Below, in pieces: positions 22,468-62,922 of a stretch of 64,000 nucleotides of DNA. Position 1 is the stretch's first letter. Each line of letters begins with the position of its first letter. A model generated the notes under the pieces. That model was not told where the DNA came from, ran no database searches, and worked only from the letters and a program-made list of their open reading frames with translations. Origin of the DNA: a virus; the IMG/VR virus record IMGVR_UViG_3300042879_006196, positions 219,393-283,392 of that record. One strand, given 5' to 3'. The translations under genes and the position numbers were made by a program.

Positions 22468-23038
22468 CTATAAATTGTACAGTTAAGCTTGAAAAATCTA
22501 TAGTTAATTTAGTTTCATTCAAATCGAAGTAATTGAATTTATTTTTAATTAAGGTTTTTGACATTTTTTCAGCAAGATGAGGGTTTTTAAAATTCTTGAA
22601 AGATAATGATCTCAATTTTTTGTTGTCTAATTTATCTTCATTTTTTGTTAAAAGTAAATATTTAAAAAGATTGTTTTCAAAATCTCTAAAATCATTTTTA
22701 AATGAAATCATTTCATTCAAAGAGAATTGATCATACAAATTGAATATAAATTCTTCAATTTTAATTTTTTTCTTTAAACCCAAGCATTGAAGCTGTATTT
22801 TTGAAAAAAAATCAATAGGTTCGCCATAAATTTGATGAAGAATTTCATTTTCAATCAGAAAAACACGAACTGGTTTATTTTTGATAAATTCAACCACCAA
22901 TAAATCGCCCGATTTTACTTCATTTATAATCAAAGATAAAGGAGGTAAATTATTTGTAAATATAGTTTCTATCACTGTTGAAAAAGGATAGCTAATTTTC
23001 TTATAAGTTTTATTAATCAAACATTTGAATTCATGCAC
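22460..23038 (-). CDS. Hypothetical protein
   Basis: I do not recognise this 192-residue, Lys/Phe/Asn-rich protein. The first half looks beta-rich and the second helical. It overlaps its upstream neighbour by 8 bases and the J-domain gene by 8 bases, so four genes from 23997 to 22460 form one coupled unit. By context it could be a small baseplate or tail assembly protein. Confidence 0.6.
   Translation of the reverse strand: MHEFKCLINKTYKKISYPFSTVIETIFTNNLPPLSLIINEVKSGDLLVVEFIKNKPVRVFLIENEILHQIYGEPIDFFSKIQLQCLGLKKKIKIEEFIFNLYDQFSLNEMISFKNDFRDFENNLFKYLLLTKNEDKLDNKKLRSLSFKNFKNPHLAEKMSKTLIKNKFNYFDLNETKLTIDFSSLTVQFIDD
22474..22479 (-). promoter_or_regulatory. -10-like TACAAT before J-domain gene
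   Basis: On the minus strand TGTACAATTTATAG precedes the ATG. TACAAT predicts a start on the A of the ATG at 22467. It lies inside the 3' end of the upstream gene. Confidence 0.45.
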
Positions 23039-46498: not shown

Positions 46499-46813
46499 TT
46501 AGTAAAGGTCATTTTTTTCATACACATAGAGATTAATTTCTTCTGTTAAGATTGTGTGCGTGGGATTTTCTTCGGGAAACAATATTGGCGACACAAATGG
46601 TTTTTGTGTGACGATGTTTGAAAATTTTAACACACAATTCGTATCGTCTCCATTTTTGAATTTTTCATAAACATCCAAGAATTTTTTATCTATTCTTACC
46701 TTTGAGCCAAAAACAAAATGTTTTTTTGCCCCTCCATATAGCTCATTTAAAATGTCGCAACCTTCTTCTAGCGTTAAAATTTGTTTTAATTTCCATTTAT
46801 CAAAAACATTCAT
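46499..46813 (-). CDS. Hypothetical protein
   Basis: I do not recognise this 104-residue protein. It is divergent from groEL: the two start codons are 24 bases apart and share a central palindrome. That suggests co-timed expression with groEL, though nothing in the sequence indicates a GroES-like fold. Confidence 0.6.
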   Translation of the reverse strand: MNVFDKWKLKQILTLEEGCDILNELYGGAKKHFVFGSKVRIDKKFLDVYEKFKNGDDTNCVLKFSNIVTQKPFVSPILFPEENPTHTILTEEINLYVYEKNDLY

Positions 46814-46818
46814 AAAAA

Positions 46819-46832
46819 ATTTTGTACAAAAT
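46819..46832. promoter_or_regulatory. Palindromic bidirectional promoter, groEL/46813 gene
   Basis: The perfect 14-bp palindrome ATTTTGTACAAAAT lies centrally between divergent start codons. Eight bases separate the TTGTACAA core from each ATG. Each direction reads TACAAA as a -10-like element, giving a leader of about 1 nt. Confidence 0.5.
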
Positions 46833-46834
46833 AA

Positions 46835-48457
<1,623 letters not shown>

Positions 48458-53097: not shown

Positions 53098-53103
53098 ATT
53101 ATA
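53098..53103 (-). promoter_or_regulatory. -10-like TATAAT before 53090 gene
   Basis: On the minus strand TTGTATAATTAGTAAG precedes the ATG. TATAAT predicts a leader of about 1 nt. Confidence 0.55.
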
Positions 53104-53106
53104 CAA

Positions 53107-54073: not shown

Positions 54074-54095
54074 ATTTAATATTTCATTGCCACTG

Positions 54096-54101
54096 TATAA
54101 T
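54096..54101 (+). promoter_or_regulatory. -10-like TATAAT, leaderless start of 54108
   Basis: CTGTATAATATTCCT precedes the ATG at 54108. The predicted start is the A of the ATG. Confidence 0.55.
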
Positions 54102-54107
54102 ATTCCT

Positions 54108-54539
54108 ATGAAACTGATTTCGCATAGAGGTAACTTAATAGGAGCAAAGACATGTTTGGAAAATCACCCAGATTCCATAAAACATGCATTAGAAAAAGGA
54201 TTTGATTGTGAAATAGACGTATGGAAAAAACAAAACAAATTTTACTTAGGTCATGATTTTGCCCAATATCAAATTGATAGAGAATTCTTATTACAAGATA
54301 AACTATGGATACATTGTAAAAATTTACAAGCATTAGTGGATTTGAAATCTGAAGCGAATGTTTTTTTCCACAATATAGACAGTTATACGCTTACATCTAA
54401 AGGCTATGTGTGGGCGTATCCAGGCTCAGAAGTTATAGAAGATTGTGTAAGAGTGCAGTTTGGTGTAGAAGATATTCCAGAAAATATTTATGGTATATGC
54501 TCAGATTGTGTTGAAGAGTATGCAAAATTAATCAACTAA
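54108..54539 (+). CDS. GDPD-like (PLC-like phosphodiesterase fold) protein
   Basis: The 143-residue protein starts KLISHRGN and has ENHPDSIKHALEKGFDCEIDVW and FYLGHD. These match the HRG, ExD and GHD signatures of glycerophosphodiester phosphodiesterases. It is shorter than typical enzymes (~240 residues), so it is a minimal form. It lies next to the cupin and HAD-nucleotidyltransferase genes and may process a glycan or phospholipid intermediate. The ATG at 54108 is chosen over an in-frame start at 54087. Confidence 0.7.
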   Translation: MKLISHRGNLIGAKTCLENHPDSIKHALEKGFDCEIDVWKKQNKFYLGHDFAQYQIDREFLLQDKLWIHCKNLQALVDLKSEANVFFHNIDSYTLTSKGYVWAYPGSEVIEDCVRVQFGVEDIPENIYGICSDCVEEYAKLIN

Positions 54540-58080: not shown

Positions 58081-58086
58081 ATTATA
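58081..58086 (-). promoter_or_regulatory. -10-like TATAAT before fcl
   Basis: On the minus strand TTGTATAATTTTTAAT precedes the ATG. The predicted leader is about 1 nt. It overlaps the stop of the methyltransferase gene. Confidence 0.55.
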
Positions 58087-58780
58087 CAATTTTTTTAACG
58101 TATGCAGTTGGACAAATGTAGTTTAGAGAAATAATTTCAATATTTTTGTCTTTGAAGAATCTGTCTACCCCTTCAGATTCAGACCATTTAGCGTAGCCAT
58201 ATTCATCAAAAATAACTAAGCCGCCAACTGAAACTCTATCCCATAGTGCGCACAATGTATCATAAGTTGGCTCACCTAGATCTAAATCTAAATATAAAAG
58301 AGAAATTTTAAAACCTGGGTTTTCCTCTACATATTTTAAAGCAGTTTTAGATATGTCTCCTTGAATTAATTCAAATTCATGTGGCAAAAAGCCATTTGAT
58401 AAAATATTTGCCTCTAAATAGTTTTTGTAATTTTGCTCGTGTTTAAAGTTGCGCCCATTGAAAAGCTCGGACATTGCTTCTTTATCTACACTTTTTAAAC
58501 TATTTATTAATTCTTCAGAATTGAACATGTCAAAACCAATAACTTTTTTACTGGTGTTCGGACATAAATATCTTTTTAATTTCAGAAAACTATATATACC
58601 AGATCCTTTGAAAACACCACATTCTACAATATCACCTGGGATATTTTTAACACTTTCGAACAATAAAGTACGTGCTAAAAGTTTACCAAATACTTTGACA
58701 TCATCACTCATTATAAAGCTATTAAATCCATCATAAAGTGATTGTTCTGAAACAATAATTTCTATATTTTCTCTTTTCAT
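58082..58780 (-). CDS. TylF/MycF-like O-methyltransferase
   Basis: The 232-residue protein resembles macrocin-type O-methyltransferases. GDIVECGVFKGSG is the AdoMet-binding motif, LLYLDLDLGEPTYD carries the metal-binding Asp, and VIFDEYG is the next acidic motif. These Mg-dependent enzymes methylate sugar hydroxyls. It probably modifies a deoxysugar of the glycan made by this cassette. It starts one base after the preceding glycosyltransferase-type gene. Confidence 0.85.
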   Translation of the reverse strand: MKRENIEIIVSEQSLYDGFNSFIMSDDVKVFGKLLARTLLFESVKNIPGDIVECGVFKGSGIYSFLKLKRYLCPNTSKKVIGFDMFNSEELINSLKSVDKEAMSELFNGRNFKHEQNYKNYLEANILSNGFLPHEFELIQGDISKTALKYVEENPGFKISLLYLDLDLGEPTYDTLCALWDRVSVGGLVIFDEYGYAKWSESEGVDRFFKDKNIEIISLNYICPTAYVKKIV

Positions 58781-58781
58781 C

Positions 58782-59570
58782 TTATCCTTGATCCCTATCG
58801 GTGTGAAAATACATTAAAGGTTTATTATTTGCAAAACACGATAAATTTCTTGCGCCAAATCTGATCCAATCAATGGAAATGTTTTTAAATATATTTCTTT
58901 CACTTTCTTTCATGTCTTCAGGGTATTCAAGCCTATATTGAATATCGCTTATTTTATACAAATTTTTAGAAATTAACCATGCTTGATAGCTTAATTGGTC
59001 GAACACCTCCCAATCACACTTAAAGAAAAAACCTTCATCATATTTTATGTCTTTAAAATATGATCCCAAATGCTGATCTACAAACCAAGGTATTGTATTC
59101 CAAACAGAATACATTTTTTTGAATTTTTTCAGCTCTTCATTTTCTTTAAAAAACTTTGAACTTTGGTGTTGAATATTTATCAAGAAATCCACATCTGTAG
59201 GATAGCAATATAAAACTTTGTCATTATAGAATCTCATGAATGATTCCTCAAACCCCGTATTTATAAATAAACTTTCAGAATCTACACACGCATATCCATA
59301 GTATTTTTGCATTTTATAAACTTCATGTAACCCATACATTTTTTTATATGTTACAGGGCTTCTGCTTGAATTTACATTTGGGCAAATTATAATTTGATGT
59401 GGGTTTACTATTTCCTGGTAAAAATTTAATTTATTTTGCTCTTCTTCACTTACAACTATATATAAATCAATATCTGGCTTAATCAAATTGTAGCTCTCAC
59501 ATAGTTTTTTTAACCATTCAATTTTTGGAAAATGTATTGGAACAATAATTGCAAGGTTATTTCCATTCAT
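58782..59570 (-). CDS. Probable glycosyltransferase
   Basis: The 262-residue protein has a Rossmann-like N-terminus (LAIIVPIHFPKIEWLKKL, then DLYIVVS) and a central ACVDSES that could serve as a DxD-type metal site. Later Trp/Tyr-rich segments fit GT-A-like enzymes of sugar cassettes. The start at 59570 follows the shared palindrome; a TTG at 59585 would fall inside it. Family is uncertain. Confidence 0.6.
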   Translation of the reverse strand: MNGNNLAIIVPIHFPKIEWLKKLCESYNLIKPDIDLYIVVSEEEQNKLNFYQEIVNPHQIIICPNVNSSRSPVTYKKMYGLHEVYKMQKYYGYACVDSESLFINTGFEESFMRFYNDKVLYCYPTDVDFLINIQHQSSKFFKENEELKKFKKMYSVWNTIPWFVDQHLGSYFKDIKYDEGFFFKCDWEVFDQLSYQAWLISKNLYKISDIQYRLEYPEDMKESERNIFKNISIDWIRFGARNLSCFANNKPLMYFHTDRDQG

Positions 59571-59575
59571 TTCTA

Positions 59576-59587
59576 AATTGTACAATT
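59576..59587. promoter_or_regulatory. Palindromic bidirectional promoter
   Basis: Perfect 12-bp palindrome AATTGTACAATT. Exactly 5 bases separate it from the ATG on each side (59593 plus, 59570 minus). TACAAT in each direction predicts a start on the A of each ATG. Confidence 0.6.
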
Positions 59588-59592
59588 AATGA

Positions 59593-60279
59593 ATGGAATT
59601 TACTTTTGGGATTTGTGCCTCTCGCTCAAATAAAGACTTACATCAAACTTTAGCCAGAAGCATTCATCTTTTAAATATACCTAATTATGAAATACTTTTT
59701 ATCGGTGACATAGAAGATGTAGACAGTAAATCAAAAGTAATTTATTTTGATGAAACACAAAAAGAAGGATGGATTACAAAGAAAAAAAATATACTATGCC
59801 AAAATGCAAATTTTGAAAATATTGTGCTTTTACACGATTATATAGAATTTGAAGCAAATTGGTATAAAGGTTTTTTAAATTTTGGCAATGATTTTGATAT
59901 TGCAATGAATGTAATTTTGAATAGTAACAATACTAGATTCAGAGATTGGTGTCTGAATCCATTTGATATTATACCTCCTAAAGGACCTGTTGTAACAAGA
60001 GAATTCTTTTTACCATACAATATCACGCATTTAACAAATTTGATGTATATATCTGGAACTTACTGGGTTGCTAAGACTAAATTTATGTTGGATAATCCTT
60101 TGGATGAAAATTTGATATGGGGACAAAGTGAAGATTTAAAATGGTCTGAGCAGGTAAGATCAAAAACACAATTTAAAATGAACACTAATTCAATAGTCAG
60201 ATGTATGAAGTTAAAATATTGTGATTTTACTGAAATATCTCCTGAAAATCTTATGAAGATAGAAGCTCTTTCATCTTAG
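59593..60279 (+). CDS. Glycosyltransferase (GT2-like)
   Basis: The 228-residue protein has a GT-A fold pattern: FTFGICASRSN, YEILFIGD, a KKKNIL segment and LLHDYIEF (where GT2 enzymes have DxD). YISGTYWVAK and LIWGQSEDLKWSEQ follow, the latter a probable catalytic ED motif. It probably transfers a sugar onto the phage-directed glycan. Its end overlaps the convergent RmlD-like gene by 29 bases. Confidence 0.78.
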   Translation: MEFTFGICASRSNKDLHQTLARSIHLLNIPNYEILFIGDIEDVDSKSKVIYFDETQKEGWITKKKNILCQNANFENIVLLHDYIEFEANWYKGFLNFGNDFDIAMNVILNSNNTRFRDWCLNPFDIIPPKGPVVTREFFLPYNITHLTNLMYISGTYWVAKTKFMLDNPLDENLIWGQSEDLKWSEQVRSKTQFKMNTNSIVRCMKLKYCDFTEISPENLMKIEALSS

Positions 60280-60949
60280 TTAAATCCATAGATGTGTCTT
60301 TTGGCACGTTATTAGGCGAACACACTTTCTTAACATTTTTATTTGATTGCACAGCTAATTCATAAATTGATTTTTTTTCAGTTCCTATATTAAATAAACC
60401 TTGAGCATTTTTTTCTATCATTTTTATTATTATATCTGCAATTACATTAGTATAATCAAAATTGCCAATTCTGTCCACAAAAGCTTCATTATAGGGAAAA
60501 GGGAAATTTTTGTGTGTGCATCTTAGTATTAAATAATTATCACAAACTAATTCAATTACACAATCTGCAAGAAGTTTTGTCACGGAATACCAATTTTCAC
60601 TAGGAATTGGAGGCTGTAATTCCGACGGCTCAACTATTGAATTGTTCGCATAAACAAAATCGCTACTTATATGAACTAATTTTATATTATTATCTTTGCA
60701 AAACAAACACAAATCATACACTGCTTTATAATTTACGTTCCAATGTTCTTCCTTCGATTCAGAGTAAGTGTTGGTATTAGCAATACAATTAACAATTGTA
60801 TCATAGTTCAACATAGTTTTTTTAAAATTTTCAAAATTACAAATATCAAATTTATGATCTTTTCTAGACAAGTAGTTCCAATTTGTTTGTTTAGTTATTT
60901 CAGTGCCTAATAAACCTTGACCCAAAACTAATATTTTTTTACTGTGCAT
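60251..60949 (-). CDS. RmlD-like NAD(P)-dependent sugar reductase
   Basis: The 232-residue SDR has GQGLLGTEI at the N-terminus, HISSDFVYA and YSVTK (Tyr-x3-Lys). This is the layout of dTDP-4-dehydrorhamnose reductases, but it is shorter than the usual ~290. It probably reduces a 4-keto deoxysugar made by the dehydrase upstream. It overlaps that gene by 11 bases. Confidence 0.82.
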   Translation of the reverse strand: MHSKKILVLGQGLLGTEITKQTNWNYLSRKDHKFDICNFENFKKTMLNYDTIVNCIANTNTYSESKEEHWNVNYKAVYDLCLFCKDNNIKLVHISSDFVYANNSIVEPSELQPPIPSENWYSVTKLLADCVIELVCDNYLILRCTHKNFPFPYNEAFVDRIGNFDYTNVIADIIIKMIEKNAQGLFNIGTEKKSIYELAVQSNKNVKKVCSPNNVPKDTSMDLTKMKELLSS

Positions 60950-62234
60950 TTGAAAAACCTTTAACTACTTTTTCTATGTAATTGAAAACAGAATCACTAT
61001 AATGCGGCGCAGCTCCAACAAAAAAAACTTTATCTAACACTTGATTCGCTTCTGGATATTTATTGAAATCATCTAGGAAACTATATCCAGGATGTAACAG
61101 AATATTTCCAGCAAAATAATTTCTTGTTTGTATTTTGTTTTTTTCTAAATAAGAAACAAGTGATTGTTTAATATCAAAGTTTTCACAAATAAATGGAGTG
61201 CCAAACCAACAAGGGTCAGATTTTTCTAAAGTTTTTACCCCTCTTATTCCTTTAATATTATCAATAAAAATCTTTTCAATTGTTTGTTTTGATTTTTTTC
61301 TTCTTAAATCAATTTCATCAAATTTCTTTAATTGCTCTAAACCTATTGCGCCTTGTAAATCTAATGGTTTCAAATTATATCCCATGTTTGCAAAAACGTA
61401 TTTGTGATCAATTATCCCATGATAATTAGGTAACCAATTATCAAATCTTCTCTGACATGTACCACAAGCAGATAAATTTGCAGAACCAACACAATAACAA
61501 TCTCGACCCCACCATGATAAACTTACAAACAGAGATTTTAATTCGTTGTCGTTGCTACAAACCATGCCACCTTCACCAGTAGATATGTGATGCGCAGGGT
61601 AGAAAGAGTTTGAAAAAGCAGAGTAGTAATCTGATATATTTTTTCCATCATATTTGCTACCCAAACTGTCACAATTGTCTCCAATTAAAATGAGATTGTG
61701 TTTGTTTGCTATTTCCTGTAATTTATCCATATCAGGCGGATTACCAAGAACAGGTGAAACAAAAATACCTTTTGTTCTAGACGTAATTTTGTTTTCAATT
61801 TGTGAAATATCAAAGTTGAGTGTGTCCCACTCAATATCCACAAAAACTGGTTTAAGTCTATTTTGATATATCACTGAAATTGTAGTGGCAAATCCCACTG
61901 GCGACACAATGATTTCATCTTCATCACGCCAATCGTATCTTTTCTTTAAAGCTGCAATCAATACTAAATTAGCTGAACTACCAGAATTGACCATATGTGA
62001 ATGCTTCACTCCAAATTTTTTACTGAATTCATATTCAAATTTGTGTACTTTTTCACCAGCAGTAATCCATTTACCATTCAAAAAAGAATTTATTGCTGCT
62101 TCAATTTCTTTGTTGTCCCAATATGGTCCAGAGTAATAAATAGATGTTTTTCCTTCTTCAAAAACATCTGAATTGTATATATATGGTGCAACGTGATTGC
62201 CCACCAAATTTTGTATGTTTTGTAATTCAACCAC
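60939..62234 (-). CDS. RfbH/E1-type deoxysugar 3-dehydrase (PLP, Fe-S)
   Basis: This 431-residue member of the DegT/StrS fold has His in place of the PLP-binding Lys (SFYPAHHISTGEGG). That marks 3-dehydrases (E1/RfbH, ColD) rather than aminotransferases. The cysteines are spaced C-x57-C-x-C-x8-C: DNCDSLG, WGRDCYC, then SACGTC. This is close to the C-x57-C-x-C-x7-C that binds [2Fe-2S] in E1. It likely removes O-3 of a 4-keto-6-deoxysugar nucleotide, giving a 3,6-dideoxysugar. The GTG at 62234 follows the promoter palindrome; a TTG at 62267 is less likely. Confidence 0.88.
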   Translation of the reverse strand: MVELQNIQNLVGNHVAPYIYNSDVFEEGKTSIYYSGPYWDNKEIEAAINSFLNGKWITAGEKVHKFEYEFSKKFGVKHSHMVNSGSSANLVLIAALKKRYDWRDEDEIIVSPVGFATTISVIYQNRLKPVFVDIEWDTLNFDISQIENKITSRTKGIFVSPVLGNPPDMDKLQEIANKHNLILIGDNCDSLGSKYDGKNISDYYSAFSNSFYPAHHISTGEGGMVCSNDNELKSLFVSLSWWGRDCYCVGSANLSACGTCQRRFDNWLPNYHGIIDHKYVFANMGYNLKPLDLQGAIGLEQLKKFDEIDLRRKKSKQTIEKIFIDNIKGIRGVKTLEKSDPCWFGTPFICENFDIKQSLVSYLEKNKIQTRNYFAGNILLHPGYSFLDDFNKYPEANQVLDKVFFVGAAPHYSDSVFNYIEKVVKGFSNAQ

Positions 62235-62239
62235 TTTAT

Positions 62240-62251
62240 AATTGTACAATT
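62240..62251. promoter_or_regulatory. Palindromic bidirectional promoter
   Basis: Perfect palindrome AATTGTACAATT with 5 bases to the ATG at 62257 (plus) and 5 bases to the GTG at 62234 (minus). It is the same geometry as at 59576. Confidence 0.6.
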
Positions 62252-62256
62252 TGATT

Positions 62257-62922
62257 ATGCAAGACAAGTTTAATATTTATTTTCATATTGCAGTGGCACA
62301 AAATTGGAAGCAAAGTTTTGACAGAGTGAACGGTCATTTAGTTGATTCTGGAATACTTGAAGACTGTAATGCTATTGTGTATTCAATTAATGGCAATATT
62401 AAAGAAGTGGCAGATTATGTAAAGGGTAAAATTGCAAATAACGTTTTGTTTTATGCAAAAAACACCTATCATGAAGAATTTGAATTTCCAACTATAAACC
62501 TTTTAAAATCAGATTGTGAACATGATAATATAAAAGCTCTATACGTTATGTCAAAAAGTGCAACCACTCCATTTACACAACAACAAAAAGATCATATTGA
62601 TGTAATGTCGTATTTTAACATTACACAATATAAAAAATGTTTAGAGCTTTTAAATAGTTATGATGCAGTGGGGGTAGATTATCATGACCATCCATATAAA
62701 CACTTTAGTGGGAACTTTTTTTGGACAAAATCCTCACATGCTAAAAAACTACAATATTTGTATTGGGAGCCTTGGCGTGAAAATGCTCCTTTGGGAGAAG
62801 AAAGACACGCCGCTGAAGCATGGGTTTGCAAACCAGATGGAAAATATTATTCTTTACACAATACTGGTATTCCAGTATTTGAAAGACATATTCATGAATA
62901 TCCATCATCCAAATATAGATAA
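62257..62922 (+). CDS. Probable glycosyltransferase-like protein
   Basis: The 221-residue protein begins FNIYFHIAVAQNWKQSF and has GVDYHDHPYKHFSGNFFWTK, a pattern known in sugar-cassette proteins where GNFFW(T/A)KS follows a DxxH motif. LGEERHAAEAWV could provide the catalytic acids. I chose the ATG at 62257 after the palindrome over an in-frame TTG at 62242. Its end overlaps the convergent fucosyltransferase gene by 18 bases. Confidence 0.65.
   Translation: MQDKFNIYFHIAVAQNWKQSFDRVNGHLVDSGILEDCNAIVYSINGNIKEVADYVKGKIANNVLFYAKNTYHEEFEFPTINLLKSDCEHDNIKALYVMSKSATTPFTQQQKDHIDVMSYFNITQYKKCLELLNSYDAVGVDYHDHPYKHFSGNFFWTKSSHAKKLQYLYWEPWRENAPLGEERHAAEAWVCKPDGKYYSLHNTGIPVFERHIHEYPSSKYR

Follow-up and report, generated by a model that had tools for sequence, protein, structure and literature searches.

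Putative palindromic bidirectional promoters with leaderless starts between divergent genes of a jumbo phage

Short palindromes centred between divergent start codons in a 347-kb phage contig are most probably bidirectional promoters, each made of two fully nested -10 elements of a class with the consensus [TC]GTANAAW and each producing two leaderless mRNAs, a reading to which we assign a probability of about 0.86. It draws on features that are plainly visible in the genome, namely the grammar of the element, its spacing, its symmetry, the absence of Shine-Dalgarno and -35 sequences, and its recurrence.

Placement and symmetry of the palindromes

The window, i.e. the whole 64,000-nucleotide stretch under analysis, corresponds to 219393-283392 in a virus record of 347,392 bases, whose genes mark it as a jumbo phage, among them those for the large terminase, portal, DnaE-type DNA polymerase, GroEL, DnaK and very long structural proteins. 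The whole contig (G000) was read, and genes were called with a simple codon-model caller. Relatives were found through their terminase (68-76% identity), and the promoter pattern led to a further, more distant one, the 316-kb phage G005. Three palindromes lie in the window exactly where a preliminary description had placed them [Table 1]; the equal spacing to both start codons that it reported holds at all three, and the intergenic regions, said to span 22-24 bases, measure 22, 22 and 24 nt at the pairs at 59576, 62240 and 46819, respectively. Its wording of two ATG codons is right for the 46819 pair; the left gene of the 62240 pair starts with GTG. At pair 1, 6 nt separate the end of TGTACAAT from the start codon on either strand, and the start codons are 23 bp apart, the distance that also separates those of pair 2. 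At pair 3, TGTACAAA on either strand ends 7 nt before ATG and the start codons are 25 bp apart.

Table 1. Putative bidirectional promoters, their flanking genes and one-directional members of the promoter class in the window (window coordinates)
Feature	Position	Strand	Description
Pair 1, putative palindromic bidirectional promoter	59576..59587		AATTGTACAATT; between ATG(-) 59570 and ATG(+) 59593, 5 nt each side
Pair 1, left gene	58782..59570	-	262 aa, without Pfam match; within glycan/sugar gene cluster
Pair 1, right gene	59593..60279	+	228 aa; 48% paralogue of contig 291846-292556
Pair 2, putative palindromic bidirectional promoter	62240..62251		AATTGTACAATT; between GTG(-) 62234 and ATG(+) 62257, 5 nt each side
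Pair 2, left gene	60939..62234	-	DegT/DnrJ/EryC1 sugar aminotransferase, 431 aa, GTG start
Pair 2, right gene	62257..62922	+	221 aa, without Pfam match
Pair 3, putative palindromic bidirectional promoter	46819..46832		ATTTTGTACAAAAT; between ATG(-) 46813 and GroEL ATG(+) 46838, 5 nt each side
Pair 3, left gene	46499..46813	-	104 aa, without Pfam match
Pair 3, right gene	46838..48457	+	GroEL-type chaperonin, 539 aa
One-directional class member	22474..22481	-	TGTACAAT; 6 nt before ATG of 22467-21622
One-directional, non-palindromic	53098..53105	-	TGTATAAT; 7 nt before ATG of 53090-52212
One-directional, non-palindromic	54094..54101	+	TGTATAAT; 6 nt before ATG of 54108-54539
One-directional, non-palindromic	58081..58088	-	TGTATAAT; 7 nt before ATG of 58073-57171

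Foremost among the evidence is the placement of the octamer TTGTACAA, which occurs seven times in the 347-kb contig: six copies are centred between divergent start codons (contig coordinates 266214, 278970 and 281634 for the window cases; 289795, 292564 and 310662 beyond the window), and the remaining one is intragenic. Centring is exact at five sites (distances 7/7 or 8/8) and off by one base at 292564 (7 and 8); the distance between start codons is 23 bp at four sites, and 24 and 25 bp at the remaining two. When all 256 octamer palindromes of the contig served as a control set (1571 sites; ORFs of at least 50 codons), symmetric placement between divergent ORFs was found for 6/7 copies of TTGTACAA versus 0/1564 sites of the other palindromes (hypergeometric P = 3e-16), and the whole-genome search for the palindrome and its spacing symmetry that had been proposed from the window thus gives a stronger result than had been noted there. 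The bare octamer is without enrichment in the window (4 found versus 3.0 expected), so the non-random aspect is its placement.

The symmetry extends one base pair further outward at all six sites, as well as at a site in G005 described below, and is lost at the coding site. The opposed -10 elements overlap, with TGTACAAW on both strands and TGTACA in common at five loci, and TGTACAAC at the sixth. GTAC is rare genome-wide (428 seen versus 687 expected in G000) and is depleted also in the relative G003 and in G005; the palindromes therefore persist against the trend. This depletion might mean that a restriction or modification site is being avoided.

A one-directional promoter class and its nesting

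The palindrome appears to be the overlapping special case of a one-directional motif. The class sequence [TC]GTANAAW ends 6-7 nt upstream of the start codon in 35 genes of this contig and 40 genes of four related phage contigs. TGTANAAT precedes 16-17 gene starts at a distance of 6 nt and 6 gene starts at 7 nt, the expected number being about 0.1 per position. Searched as a raw pattern without gene calls, TGTANAATN6ATG (TGTANAAT-N6-ATG) is found 18 times in G000, other spacings giving mostly 0-4 matches and a spacing of 7 giving 8; the same peak at distance 6 recurs in G003 (12), G005 (10) and G001 (5). A -10-type motif at a fixed 6-7 nt from an ORF is thus seen in G000, G001, G003 and G005, with two cases in G002.

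Over the five phages, a Shine-Dalgarno sequence precedes none of the 75 class genes versus 230 of the 820 remaining genes, and the 75 aligned class promoters carry no information from -50 to about -19, i.e. no -35 conservation, which suggests that a -35 element is dispensable in this class. Their common content is a G at -13 followed by TANAAW at -12 to -7. The search pattern imposes this in part, but a peak of G at -13 is also present over all gene starts when these are left unselected. The base at -10 is C in 9/9 scored nested promoters versus 3/26 others. Larger divergent gaps hold two separate promoters (148430/148484 and 287234/287275) or partly overlapping ones (295270/295298). The motif, taken together with the lack of Shine-Dalgarno and -35 sequences, would be the signature of a -10-only, leaderless promoter, and the overlapping -10-like elements with leaderless starts postulated in the preliminary description gain support from the non-palindromic motifs placed in the same way, and equally devoid of both signals, before many single genes. 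Its notion of a 12-bp promoter unit fares less uniformly: one short sequence does appear to serve both directions, but the conserved content amounts to 8-10 bp, (W)TTGTACAA(W), rather than 12. In G003 (IMGVR_UViG_3300042691_050360), a 37-bp near-perfect palindrome, CCAATCATGAATTAATGTACAATTAATTCATGATTGG, spans a class promoter and the following gene's start codon at about 77110-77146; no divergent gene was called to its left.

The standard -10 element of sigma-70-type promoters occupies -12 to -7. In the mechanism that we propose, the class promoter would lie at -14 to -7 from the start codon, and the start codon would be +1 or fall within 1-2 bases of it, yielding a leaderless mRNA. Two such promoters in opposite orientation, with start codons 23-25 bp apart, would have the central TGTACA in common. 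Nesting at 23 bp would pair the TA at -12/-11 with itself, the G at -13 with the C at -10, the T at -14 with the A at -9 and the T at -15 with the A at -8. A G at -13 in one promoter thereby requires a C at -10 in the other, which yields ATTGTACAAT, and pairing the nested elements position by position predicts exactly TTGTACAA together with the C at -10. RNA polymerase would load either way, one direction at a time, to produce two leaderless mRNAs from a gap of 22-24 nt. Since the opposed promoters are near-identical, similar strength would be expected of the two directions; since two RNA polymerases cannot co-occupy the site, the pair should be transcribed alternately, and equally unless something intervenes. 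Initiation by RNA polymerase at the palindromes, the identity of +1 with the start codon and the mutual exclusion of the two directions are what we infer from this geometry.

Two observations count against this explanation. The -7 base pair is included in the symmetry at all six sites and at that of G005, even where the base there is not T (A/A at GroEL, C/C at 289795), slightly beyond what the promoter grammar needs. The classical extended -10 element is defined by TG at -15/-14, and a G at -13, directly adjoining the hexamer, differs from it. We would offer only tentatively, and at clearly worse than even odds, the broader proposal that this jumbo-phage lineage recognizes promoters consisting of a -10 element alone, with an obligatory G at -13, possibly by means of a sigma factor of its own, and has repeatedly evolved orientation-neutral palindromes from which, within about 22 bp, two leaderless mRNAs arise that are balanced and mutually exclusive, a near-minimal divergent transcription unit.

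Symmetry of this kind is also what a dimeric regulator of the phage would favor if it bound TTGTACAA and controlled both divergent genes, the promoters merely overlapping its operator. The dyad is perfect, the palindrome extends over at least 10 bp at the six sites and at that of G005, also where the -7 base is not T, and divergent glycan genes are plausible co-regulated targets. An operator, however, has no need to be locked at 6-7 nt from both start codons; the core kept over the six sites barely exceeds what the promoter grammar needs; non-palindromic versions stand at equal distance before many single genes; and one-directional promoter sites carrying TTGTACAA number zero in the contig, the seven copies being six divergent and one coding. 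We consider an operator unlikely.

Still less probable is that each site has a single real promoter direction and owes the other to incidental complementarity, in the manner of antisense starts at symmetric -10 elements. Many E. coli promoters do transcribe divergently owing to the symmetry of their -10 element (PMC12825309), and non-coding antisense products are frequent (PMC10268837). Yet an ORF starts at the class distance on both sides of 6/7 sites, as it does for no other palindrome, and the separate divergent promoters at the two larger gaps indicate that two promoters are built where the gap allows. Chance, finally, would make the palindromes functionless products of AT-rich gaps between divergent genes, a view with which the unraised octamer count in the window agrees. 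It is refuted by the all-palindrome control, many of whose sites are more AT-rich and none of which is symmetric, and its probability is negligible.

Flanking genes, relatives and candidate sigma factors

The genes next to the putative nested promoters of the window are given in Table 1. The paralogue of the pair 1 right gene (contig 278985) at contig 291846-292556 adjoins another palindromic pair; the two may reflect a duplication, and the six cases may then not all be independent. At contig 289795, the symmetric arrangement became apparent only once the start of the left gene had been moved to the codon that symmetry predicts, and this minus-strand start restores the N-terminal MTQTYFLDIDGV (DIDG motif) that the gene caller had cut. 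By our own reading, the N-terminus of this minus-strand gene (contig 289086-289787) carries a HAD-like DIDG motif and its C-terminal half is cupin-like. Start codons in genomes of this kind, such as the one at contig 289787, can thus be corrected by the start-distance rule.

Our search found no relatives of GroEL or of the products of 62257-62919, 59593-60276 and 58782-59570. The DegT-type aminotransferase (60939-62234) shares 72-77% identity with proteins on at least 80 other viral contigs and is apparently common phage cargo in unrelated contexts; its relatives were set aside as a test of conservation, being a cargo gene in other contexts and devoid of the class motif upstream. G005 has one palindrome of the same kind, between an unrelated divergent gene pair whose products we read as sugar-kinase-like and glycosyltransferase-like proteins. 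The arrangement thus seems to arise repeatedly within this promoter system and not to descend with a single gene pair. A scan of the collection for CAT-N6-ATTGTACAAT-N6-ATG returned 36 stretches, nearly all intracoding and many representing one conserved protein segment; the real divergent gaps among them number just two, that of G005 and one on a short contig of 44% GC. A wider pattern, of which at least 87 sites were checked, gave the same two gaps and a possible third (L298; short ORFs of 62 and 65 codons), the remaining sites among the matches listed being coding or without ORFs.

The class could be read by the host primary sigma factor or by a phage-encoded one. No phage-encoded multisubunit RNA polymerase was detected by a search for beta-prime (PF04997), which could miss a very divergent one. 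Sigma-like proteins number at least two in this phage: one encoded close to the replication genes (contig 120036) and an ECF-like one (contig 320400-320987). The former has counterparts in G001, G003 and G005, and a class promoter precedes it in G001 and G003. The ECF gene lies behind an early-type promoter with a leader, which makes it possible that an early sigma factor turns on the [TC]GTANAAW class. A NusG-like protein adjoins the ECF-like sigma factor and another sigma-like ORF at contig 319808-320987. Outside the window, about 39 near-identical copies of TTTTCCAGGTTTAACA...TATAATAGATATG (contig 3475-67203, and also 335726) each precede a gene, in most cases a small one, and place TATAAT invariably 4 nt upstream of its start codon; these repeats are probably a large array of early, leaderless promoters. 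As to the host, the best matches of DnaK are to Armatimonadota at about 60%, too weak to name one. In the class of these best matches, TGTANAATN6ATG outnumbers the same motif at 9-nt spacing by 152 to 92, a modest excess that is only suggestive as a pointer to the host.

Comparison with known systems

Symmetric -10 bidirectional promoters are widespread in bacteria, where they fall, with small variation, into spacing classes of 23, 18 and 10 bp and where two RNA polymerases cannot occupy the site together (PMC12825309). The phage elements resemble the bacterial and archaeal bidirectional promoters described by Warman, Grainger and colleagues (PMC12825309, PMC10268837) in that opposed -10 elements overlap in one short sequence and in the mutual exclusion to be expected here. 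If transcripts start at the codons, the four sites with start codons 23 bp apart would match the 23-bp class (PMC12825309). Unlike those promoters, the phage element consists of the -10 alone and always has a G at -13, from which TGTACA results; its starts would coincide with the start codons, rendering both mRNAs leaderless; and an almost identical palindrome is repeated at six loci within a single phage.

Leaderless expression from a -10 element adjoining the ORF has been established experimentally in Deinococcus (PMC12340547). The phage class shares with the leaderless genes of Deinococcus-Thermus (TANNNT) a -10 element at a fixed short distance from the start codon, the lack of a Shine-Dalgarno sequence and a -35 element that is not needed, and differs from them in its motif, [TC]GTANAAW with a strict G at -13, and in its nesting in opposite pairs; divergent or bidirectional cases are not mentioned in the text of that study (PMC12340547). 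The Thermus phage phiYS40, whose terminase is a distant (24%) relative of the one found here, makes leaderless middle and late mRNAs (Sevostyanova 2007, as cited in PMC3594737) and so offers, as far as that secondary account goes, a likeness in being a large lytic phage with leaderless mRNAs, here predicted; we found no report of symmetric shared promoters in the portion of the phiYS40 literature consulted. In the open-licence literature, no earlier description of a promoter that is both palindromic and bidirectional and leaderless was found.

The palindromes would bring together the symmetric -10 bidirectional promoter and the leaderless -10-adjacent promoter, each a known phenomenon, in an arrangement in which about 10 bp and two start codons carry everything. 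With only the -10 present, they offer a clean natural test of the minimal sequence that directs initiation, of whether the output of a palindromic promoter is equal or exclusive, and of how leaderless divergent genes are balanced. What appears to be new is the combination in its minimal form, both halves being already known elsewhere.
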